Assembly: GCA_014239435.1 (NCBI GenBank) | Contig: JAAZYX010000003.1 | Location: forward strand, 1 to 64,000 | DNA length: 64,000 nucleotides | Reading direction: 5' to 3' | From: Fidelibacterota bacterium | GTDB taxonomy: Bacteria; Fidelibacterota; Marinisomatia; Marinisomatales; TCS55 | In this document: in pieces, positions 55,649 to 59,603 of the stretch | Position numbering within the stretch: position 1 is the first letter of the stretch | Layout: each line of letters opens with the position of its first letter | The notes under the pieces: generated by a model | Seen by the model: the letters and a program-made list of their open reading frames with translations, nothing else | Databases searched by the model: none | What the model was told of the DNA's origin: nothing | Program-made: the position numbers and the translations under genes

Positions 55649-58600
55649 TTACACAGTTTCCTCCAATCTATTTACTGAAAAATACCGCGATTCCGGATGA
55701 GAAAAATACCATCCACTAACAGAAGCGGCTGGGTACATTGCGCGGGTTTCTGTTAGTGAAATTCCTGTATTTTCTTCAACATTCAGCAATGTCCAGATTT
55801 TATCTTTTTCGGTATGATCCGGGCAGGCAGGATACCCCGGCGCCGGTCGAATACCTTTGTATTTTTCTTTTATCAGCGATTCAGAATCCAACTCCTCATC
55901 CGAAGAATATCCCCAGAATTCTTTCCGCACCCGTTCGTGAAGCCTTTCCGCCAGCGCTTCGGCTAAGCGGTCTGCCAGCACTTTCGCCATGATGGAATTA
56001 TAATCATCATGATCATCTTCAAATTCCTTTACAATGGATTCTAGTCCGTGCCCGGCAGTCACCGCAAAGGTGCCGATGAAATCATCTTTTGGCGCTACAA
56101 AATCGGCTAAACTGTAGTTGGGTTTTGCGATGCCCTTATCAACAGTTTGCCTCGGAAATTTGAATTCCAACCCTTCTGTAAATACCGTTTCATCCTCGGA
56201 AAATGCAGGATGAATCCCTATAACTGCTTTTGCCGTGATCAGTTTTTCCGTTACAATCCGTTGCAGCAGATTCTGTCCATCAGCAAACAATTTTTGAGCT
56301 TCGATGCCGTATTTTTTATCTGAGAGAATTTTTGGATAAATCCCCTTTAATTCCCACGCATGAAAAAAGGGCGACCAGTCAATATAATTAACAAGTTCGT
56401 CCAGCGGATAATCCGCAAACACCTTTATTCCTGTTAGTTCAGGATCCGGCTTTGTGTATGTTTCCCAGTCTATAGTGTATTTTCTTTTTCGTGCATCTTC
56501 TAAGGACAACTCAGCTATTTTTGTTTTTCCTGCTCTTGTCAAACGAATTTTTTTAAAATCATCTCGAACGTCTTCAACAAATCCGTCTCTTACTTTTTCG
56601 TTCATTAATTTTCCAACTACACCCACCGCACGCGATGCATCAATTACGTGAATCGTTGGACCGGAATATTTTTCTTCAATCTTTACTGCTGTATGCTTAC
56701 GGCTTGTAGTGGCGCCGCCGATTAAAAGAGGCACTTCAAATTTCAGGCGTTCCATTTCTTCTGCAACATGAACCATTTCATCCAGACTTGGGGTAATCAA
56801 ACCGGAAAGGCCGATAATATCTGCATTTTCATTTCGTGCTGTAGATAAGATTTTATCAGACGGCACCATGACACCGAGATCAATAATGTCATATCCATTG
56901 CATCCCAGAACAACGCCGACAATATTTTTTCCAATATCGTGTACATCGCCTTTCACGGTTGCCATTATAATTTTTCCGTTTGATTGGCCCGTCAATCCCA
57001 ATTCGTCCTTTTCCTTTTCAATAAATGGCAAAAGGTGTGCAACTGCCTTTTTCATCACACGAGCAGATTTGACCACTTGCGGTAAAAACATTTTCCCGGA
57101 TCCAAACAAATCTCCGACTATATTCATTCCGTCCATGAGTGGACCTTCAATCACGTCAATCGGGCGTGGAAGATTCTGCCGAGCTGCTTCGGTATCCTCC
57201 ACAATATAATCAGTGATTCCTTCGACTAGGGCATAGCTCAGCCTTTTTTCAACAGGATTTAAACGCCAAGTCAAATCCTCTGTATCAGATTTTTTTATAC
57301 CTTTAAATTCTTCGGCGATTTCCACGAGTCGTTCGGTAGCGTCATTTCTGCGATTAAATAAAACATCCTCCACTCTTACCTTCAGCTTTGCCTCAATATC
57401 ATCGTACACGGTTAACTGCCCCGCATTAATAATTCCCATATCCATCCCAGCTTGAATGGCATGATAGAGAAAGGCAGAATGCATCGCTTCGCGAATGCCG
57501 TCATTTCCCCGAAATGAAAATGACAGATTGCTGACACCTCCACTGATATGAATTCCGGGAAGCGTTTCCTTCAGTGTTTTTGCGGCATTGATGAAATCCT
57601 TAGCGTATTCATTGTGCTCTTCAATCCCAGTGGCGATGGCAAAAATATTCGGATCAAAAATGATATCTTCCGCAGGTAATCCTACTTTTTCTGTTAAAAT
57701 ATGATAAGCACGAGTACAGATTTTTACTTTTCGATCGTAGGTATCCGCCTGACCTTTTTCATCAAACGCCATGACGACAACAGCTGCGCCGTATTTTTTA
57801 ATACACTTTGCCTGACGAATAAATTCTTCCTCACCTTCTTTCATGGAAATTGAATTCACGATACCTTTGCCTTGCAAATTTTTTAGTCCGGTTTCGAGAA
57901 CGGTCCACTTGGATGAATCCACCATAACCGGCACTTTGGCAATGTCAGGCTCGGAAGCAATTAACCTGAGAAAAGTCTCCATCACCTGCTCAGAATCGAG
58001 AAGGCCTTCATCCATATTTACGTCTATAATTTGAGCCCCATTCCGGATTTGCTGCCGTGCAATAGACAAGGCCTCTTCATAATTATCCTCTTTAATCAGC
58101 CGACGAAATTTTGCTGAACCGGTCACATTCGTTCGTTCACCTACATTCATAAAATTACTGTCCGGCCGTATGGTTACGGGCTCAAGTCCGCTTAGTTTAG
58201 TCAACGCCGTAATTTCGGGAATCGGTCTTGGTTCGATGCTTTTAACCGCTTCAGCGATTGCCTCAATATGTTTTGGAGTTGTACCGCAGCATCCGCCCAC
58301 AACATTCACCAGTCCGCTACCAGCAAATTCTTTTATGGTCTCTGCCATGGATTCCGGTGATTCATCATATTCGCCAAATTCATTCGGTAATCCAGCATTT
58401 GGATACACGAATACAGGAATATCAGCTATCGTAGACAACTCATCCAGCCATGGACGAATTTGTTCTGAGCCGAGCGCGCAATTAAGGCCAACCGCTGTCA
58501 AATCTGCATGACGGATTGAGTGCCAGAATGCTTCCACCGTTTGTCCGGACAGTGTGCGTCCGCTTGCATCGGTAATGGTACCTGATACTAAGATAGGAAT

Positions 58601-59194
58601 TTCAGAATTATTTTCCTCCAGCAATTCTCGGACTGCAAACAGGGCTGCTTTGCAGTTTAGGGTATCAAAGACAGTTTCAATAATGAAAAGGTCAACCTCA
58701 CCGTCTAATAGCCCATTTGCCTGCTCATAATAAGCTTCTTTCAGGATGTTGAAAGAAATGTTCCGAAATCCCGGATTATTAACATCAGGACTTAATGACG
58801 CTGTTCGGTTTGTCGGGCCAAGCGCTCCTGCAACAAACCGTGGTTTATCTGAATATTTCGAGGCAGCAAATTTAGCAATTTTTGCCGCTTCAAGATTTAT
58901 CTCGTACGCCAAATCTTCCATACCGTAATCCATCTGAGAAATTGAGTTGGCGCTGAACGTATTGGTTTCAACAATATCCGCGCCCGCATCAAAATATGCT
59001 GTATGGATTTCAGAGACTACATCCGGGCGGGTTAGGCACAAGAGGTCGTTATTCCCGCTTAAATCATTTTTATGCTTTTCGAATTGGTCGCCGCGAAAAT
59101 CGGCTTCCGTAAGATTGTAAGACTGAACCATGGTTCCCATCGCACCGTCAAATACCATAATTCTGTTTTGTAATATGTTTTTTAACTGGATCAT
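55649..59194 (-). CDS. metH: Cobalamin-dependent methionine synthase
   Basis: An 1181-residue MetH that methylates homocysteine from methyltetrahydrofolate through cobalamin. The domains are in the expected order. The homocysteine domain spans about 1-325, with zinc cysteines in [14 protein letters not shown]. The pterin domain spans about 345-610. The cap and B12 domain span about 640-870, with the B12 motif in [20 protein letters not shown]. The SAM activation domain spans about 885-1181, with [12 protein letters not shown]. The long form with an activation domain is complete. A SAM-II-like riboswitch and hairpin lie directly upstream. Confidence 0.96.
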
Positions 59195-59204
59195 AACAAA
59201 AAAA

Positions 59205-59223
59205 CCCCGGTGCTTATTCGGGG
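59205..59223 (-). terminator. Riboswitch expression-platform hairpin before metH
   Basis: CCCCG (59205-59209) pairs with CGGGG (59219-59223) around a 9-nt loop. On the minus strand it is followed by a T-run reaching almost to the metH ATG (59192-59194). It could act as a transcription terminator, and the GGGG could also be sequestered as the ribosome binding site. Confidence 0.65.
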
Positions 59224-59228
59224 CTTAC

Positions 59229-59284
59229 AGCCTTTTTAGCACCATTTTTTTACGTCGCGGCAATTGGGCATAAATCACGACCGC
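59229..59284 (-). promoter_or_regulatory. SAM-II-like riboswitch upstream of metH
   Basis: The minus strand reads GGTCGTGATTTATGCCC, then AATTGC, CGCGACG, AAAAAAATGG and GCTAAAAAGGC. This follows the order of the SAM-II (metA) aptamer: a first stem (GTCG/CGAC), the TGATTTA loop, ATTGC, and the GCTAAAAAGG segment whose GGC can pair with GCC to close the pseudoknot. Location before metH fits SAM control of methionine synthesis. A covariance search would settle it. Confidence 0.8.
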
Positions 59285-59603
59285 CGGTATTTTACACTTT
59301 TTTAGGAACAGAATTCAAGACATAAACGATTCATTCAATATTCCTTGGGTTGCTACTGTAAATCCCTTAGTTTACGGTTTGGATGTAAACGTATTGAGGA
59401 AGCGGACTAAACACTTAAGCTTTTTCTAAGGTTCACCGTTTTTTTGTCGAAAATAAAAATTCACAAAAACAAAGCCCTCCTCAACAACTGACGGTTTTTG
59501 GACAGACTGAACCGCCCCTTTCCCGGGGACTGTCCTTCGTCACTCACGTATACCATCCGCCCTAACAGAAAGCAATGTGTTTTGCGCATTGCAAGGAGCG
59601 AGC
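59285..59603. other. Divergent gap between the metH riboswitch and RNase G
   Basis: No reading frame is convincing here. A hairpin (GGACAG 59500-59505 with CTGTCC 59530-59535, enclosing CCCC/GGGG) lies in the RNase G leader. The stretch presumably holds promoters for metH (minus) and RNase G (plus). I see no repeat or known RNA other than the riboswitch at its left edge. Confidence 0.4.

Follow-up and report, generated by a model that had tools for sequence, protein, structure and literature searches.

A SAM-II riboswitch before metH in Candidatus Neomarinimicrobiota with a predicted terminator and a candidate antiterminator

SAM-II riboswitches and their terminator-type control are known already, and in alpha- and betaproteobacteria a SAM-II is commonly followed by a terminator (PMC2258182, PMC1273637). 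At the S. meliloti metZ SAM-II the terminator is predicted to form on SAM binding, giving an RNA of about 100 nt (PMC9373788), and a survey of Proteobacteria reports metY, hom, metA, metX, metC and metW as SAM-II targets, with metH absent (PMC4239095). Here we describe a SAM-II element on the minus strand of a 64,000-nucleotide stretch of DNA (the window), placed before a metH gene whose nearest relatives in named genomes are 71–83% identical and all belong to Ca. Neomarinimicrobiota (SAR406). Like the A. tumefaciens metA SAM-II (PMC1273637), the element combines a P1 hairpin with a P2 pseudoknot, carries the segments GAUUU, UUGC, UAAA and GCUAAA, and lies between a putative promoter just 5' of P1 and a predicted terminator 3', ahead of a methionine gene. 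It differs from the A. tumefaciens switch in its Neomarinimicrobiota host, its short P2, its metH target and its candidate antiterminator, in which GCUAAA would pair with loop and 3' arm of the terminator. As at S. meliloti metZ, the terminator is predicted to form on SAM binding, and we consider the element very probably a transcriptional OFF switch for metH.

The first-pass annotation had proposed a SAM-II layout before metH from the minus-strand sequence GTCGTGATTTATGCCCAATTGCCGCGACGTAAAAAAATGGTGCTAAAAAGG, and the covariance search it called for bears this out: a sensitive cmscan of 801 bp matched RF00521 (SAM-II) at 59215–59291 (minus strand) with 32.2 bits (E 2.6e-5). Searched against the window's own genome of 1.7 Mb, the same match has an E value of 1.3e-5 and the next RF00521 match one of 1.56, indicating a single SAM-II in this assembly (93% complete); the other weak matches (E 1.56 and worse) were taken as chance. 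Since its score falls below the RF00521 gathering score of 36, the window copy is missing from a default gathering-level Rfam scan of the window, which returned two tRNAs only; the ortholog in a genome of the same genus reaches 40.6 and passes the cut-off. Covariance models for related or alternative classes, namely the SAM-II long loop and SAM-V families (RF01726, RF01826; E up to 10) and SAM-I (RF00162), gave no match to the element. The P1-loop pattern occurs once in the window and not in shuffled sequences, the four pocket segments are all present in the element and also in its relatives, and the gene 3' of it belongs to methionine metabolism. The element is confirmed at the level of sequence as a SAM-II riboswitch, with predicted SAM binding. 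RF01726/SAM-V and the tandem SAM-II/SAM-V switch of Pelagibacter (PMC11508383) belong to the same family of SAM-binding folds; unlike the tandem, the window element is single.

A putative sigma-70 promoter (TTGAAT-18-TAAAAT, 59289–59318, minus strand) lies directly 5' of P1 and matches the consensus at 9 of 12 positions, a quality for which 1.2 sites are expected by chance in the scanned region; transcription from it would start near 59282. Across 96 metH leaders of the phylum a TA-A/T-rich −10 box is conserved 12–7 nt before P1, together with a T-rich −35 region around −37 to −34. The folded RNA places the P1 5' strand GTCGT at 59277–59281, paired with GCGAC at 59254–59258, a strand also supported by leader comparison. 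The five P1 pairs are intact in 94 of 95 leaders, with one mispair; four are invariant and the fifth occurs as T-G, G-C, T-A, A-T or C-G. The P2 5' strand GCCCAATTGC (59260–59269), in which CC and TTGC are conserved in relatives, is assigned from the sequence and the SAM-II model of PMC1273637 as the pseudoknot partner of GCTAAAAAGGC (59230–59240), the strand that contributes to the SAM pocket and that the RF00521 alignment likewise places here. The P2a C-G pairs are present in 93 and 85 of 95 leaders and are mostly invariant, and thus lend little covariation support to P2.

The hairpin, with arms AAGCCCCG and CGGGGTTT, and the T-run that had been noted ahead of the metH start are also present, and relatives likewise have a terminator before metH. 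In minus-strand order, GTCGTGATTTATGCCCAATTGCCGCGACGTAAAAAAATGGTGCTAAAAAGG is followed by AAGCCCCG-AATAAGCAC-CGGGGTTT, a T-run and the ATG at 59194–59192. The hairpin (59202–59226, minus strand) is a predicted intrinsic terminator of −10.9 kcal/mol by RNA folding, and its U-tract (59204–59198) ends 3 nt before the ATG; a simple terminator scan missed this hairpin, whose loop of 9 nt exceeds the 8 nt that the scan allows. The gene itself (55649–59194, minus strand) encodes a cobalamin-dependent methionine synthase of 1181 aa (TIGR02082, 1725.9 bits) with a complete set of Pfam domains: S-methyl_trans, Pterin_bind, B12-binding_2, B12-binding and Met_synt_B12.

A candidate antiterminator links the aptamer with this terminator. 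GGUGCU (GGTGCT, 59243–59238, minus strand) shares bases with the P2 3' strand and is the complement of AGCACC (59214–59209), a segment in the terminator loop that runs into the first base of the 3' arm. Across the phylum the mean score of this pairing is 14.7, compared with 8.3±0.2 when the loop letters are shuffled and 6.7±0.3 when the 5' strand is shuffled. In a covariation test of 83 sequences anchored only on GCU(AA):AGC, the flanking pairs −1/+1 and −2/+2 were standard in 71 and 72 sequences respectively, while 2000 random re-pairings gave means of 56 and 60 and maxima of 65 and 69; examples of the alternative pairings are GGUGCU/AGCACC, GUUGCU/AGCAAC, GAUGCU/AGCAUC and UGAGCU/AGCUCG. Because relatedness can mimic covariation, each column was also simulated on the metH tree, and in 5000 runs the observed count for the first pair was reached 0 times (3' column) or 57 times (5' column), and that for the second pair 16 or 44 times. 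The third flanking pair carried no covariation signal in either permutations or tree simulations, and the full GCU:loop match is absent in 13 of 96 leaders. Sequence and comparison together thus support the aptamer, the terminator, their linkage to metH and a conserved, covarying pairing, with the ligand-pocket strand N3-GCUAAA as a candidate antiterminator directed at terminator loop and 3' arm. Structurally, the antiterminator helix and the terminator appear to be mutually exclusive: the helices cross and share one base, and since the antiterminator helix runs right up to the 3' arm of the terminator and no loop is left to span the first helix, the two forms should be unable to coexist.

Folded in the absence of ligand and with pseudoknots excluded, the window leader adopts P1 plus the antiterminator, and the A-run of the linker additionally pairs with the U-tract. 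For the segment from linker to U-tract the antiterminator form is calculated at −15.1 kcal/mol and the terminator form at −11.4 kcal/mol. Among 91 leaders the antiterminator–terminator difference, again pseudoknot-free, has a median of −1.3 kcal/mol, i.e. near equality; in 55 of them the antiterminator equals or exceeds the terminator in stability, and in 82 it is at most 4 kcal/mol less stable. Such a near-balance, on equilibrium energies of ligand-free and pseudoknot-free folds, is what ligand control would need.

We propose that the transcript begins at the base of P1. When SAM is bound, loop and tail would form the P2 pseudoknot and capture GCUAAAAAGG, the downstream terminator would form, and RNA polymerase would halt shortly ahead of the metH AUG, releasing a transcript of about 80 nt. 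Without SAM, the free GGUGCU would pair with AGCACC, and this antiterminator would block the terminator so that metH is transcribed. Since the two structures exclude each other, SAM binding should free the terminator and turn metH off. SAM binding, termination and the direction of control are predicted here, and control of metH by SAM-induced termination is the most likely reading.

Translational control, in which SAM would hide the ribosome-binding region and the hairpin would be merely structural, has a precedent in the Sargasso Sea metX SAM-II (PMC10907184), and the end of the hairpin lies within a few nucleotides of the AUG, where it could also hinder initiation. P2 is, however, about 36 nt from the AUG and contains no Shine-Dalgarno motif, and such a mode would leave both the U-tract and the covarying antiterminator unexplained. 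Shine-Dalgarno-like motifs are moreover rare in the window, preceding the ATG of 9 of 44 ORFs of at least 150 aa compared with 5 of 44 control positions, which led us to discard masking of the ribosome-binding site as the principal mode. We regard purely translational control as unlikely; a mixed transcriptional and translational mode is possible. Still less probable is a constitutive terminator that closes the leader regardless of SAM: the S. meliloti metA leader does combine a SAM-II with a terminator for which no SAM response is predicted (PMC9373788), but at the present locus the complementarity of terminator loop and 3' arm to the SAM-pocket strand is far above that of shuffled controls, and it covaries. 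That the element is a chance resemblance or a decayed SAM-II relic, as its score below the Rfam cut-off might suggest, is highly improbable given its genome-wide E value, orthologs over the cut-off before the same gene, and the covariation and near-universal integrity of P1.

Within the phylum, RF00521 matches were found in 115 of 245 genomes (E ≤ 0.05), 53 of them over the family cut-off; 14 control genomes yielded none over the cut-off. Of 111 phylum matches examined, 97 adjoin metH directly upstream. In 96 of these 97 leaders P2 is succeeded by a hairpin and a U-tract, the remaining leader being masked by N, and the first ATG falls 3–10 nt past the hairpin arm in 78 of the 96. A comparison by hand of metH protein searches with RF00521 matches showed SAM-II in about 100 of the 105 genomes of families f1–f19 that have MetH; the five exceptions comprise four in which the match lacks the MetH N-terminus (G079, G120, G144, G154) and G044. 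Basal families have a different MetH (33–53% identical); not one of the few weak SAM-II matches read there precedes metH. Taken together, this distribution marks the arrangement as a trait of one large clade. Most genomes of genus g16 in family f9 (0.4–1.0 Mb) have neither metH nor SAM-II, which suggests a loss of the whole metH/SAM-II unit with genome reduction.

Alphaproteobacterial SAM-II leaders appear to solve the same problem with different strands. Among 24 leaders whose terminator could be parsed, its 5' arm shows a match to the P2 3' strand (12.9 versus 8.8±0.6 shuffled), and its loop shows none to GCUAAA (9.4 versus 8.8±0.4). The Neomarinimicrobiota metH leaders have the reverse emphasis, with 14.7 versus 8.3±0.2 for the loop and 7.1 versus 5.3±0.3 for the 5' arm. 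In alphaproteobacterial SAM-II the partner of the terminator 5' arm is the P2 3' strand; in the Neomarinimicrobiota leaders GCUAAA would pair with loop and 3' arm. Most other SAM-II copies in Bacteroidota have an alphaproteobacteria-like P2 tail, GCUAAAGCGUC, unlike the window. Two Bacteroidota copies, L241 and L240 (the latter ahead of a MetY-type gene), do have a terminator matching GCUAAA, which takes the GCUAAA-loop design beyond a single phylum. Nor is SAM-II before metH unique to Neomarinimicrobiota, as the start of a metH homolog lies within reach downstream of 3 of 13 Bacteroidota SAM-II matches (about 0.5 kb away at L236).

On balance we favour the view that a SAM-II platform became nearly fixed before metH in one large Neomarinimicrobiota clade, with the pocket strand serving as antiterminator to terminator loop and 3' arm, perhaps joined by pairing between the A-rich linker and the U-tract, and that this scheme arose separately from, or replaced, the alphaproteobacterial pairing of P2 with the 5' arm. 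The first-pass annotation had suggested that SAM-II with a terminator before metH would be a noteworthy variant. The terminator as such does not make it one, being already common after SAM-II in alpha- and betaproteobacteria (PMC2258182, PMC1273637, PMC9373788); what stands is the host phylum, the nearly fixed metH target and the antiterminator pairing, the last of which that annotation had not seen. Host phylum, clade-wide fixation at metH and pairing scheme appear to be unreported in the papers searched, and no paper on SAM riboswitches in Marinimicrobia/SAR406 was found in the openly accessible literature that the search covered. We regard the pairing scheme and its fixation in the clade as a variant that is real, if modest. 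With it, SAM-II reaches an ocean phylum that is abundant and for the most part uncultured, as a standing control of B12-dependent methionine synthesis. It also offers about 90 naturally occurring versions of a compact switch in which the ligand-binding strand is also the candidate antiterminator strand, making a little-studied mechanism of SAM-II termination directly testable.

Several further arrangements were observed alongside these leaders. Two Bacteroidota genomes carry two SAM-II-type aptamers about 115 nt apart (L230/L241 in G723 and L239 in G627), and in the G723 tandem double switch each aptamer has its own terminator. A Flavobacteriales MAG has a SAM-I riboswitch (L084, 4814–4923, 84 bits) directly before metH, i.e. 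the same gene under another class. Within Neomarinimicrobiota, additional SAM-II-like copies with a terminator were found at L184, L186, L187 and L192 (G153, G109, G105), at L147, L153 and L183 (G235, G231, G229), and at L154 and L181 (G167, G176), several of them with a second, RF01726/SAM-V-like aptamer about 110 nt further downstream. All of these SAM-II-like and SAM-V-like copies score below the Rfam gathering cut-offs, and an exact-pattern search of viral contigs found neither the aptamer nor the SAM-V-like type. The genes that follow them do not resemble methionine genes and include an antitoxin-like ORF as well as unknown and zinc-finger ORFs. Copies that are nearly identical turn up twice in G109 and also in genomes of other genera, which suggests that they ride a mobile element.
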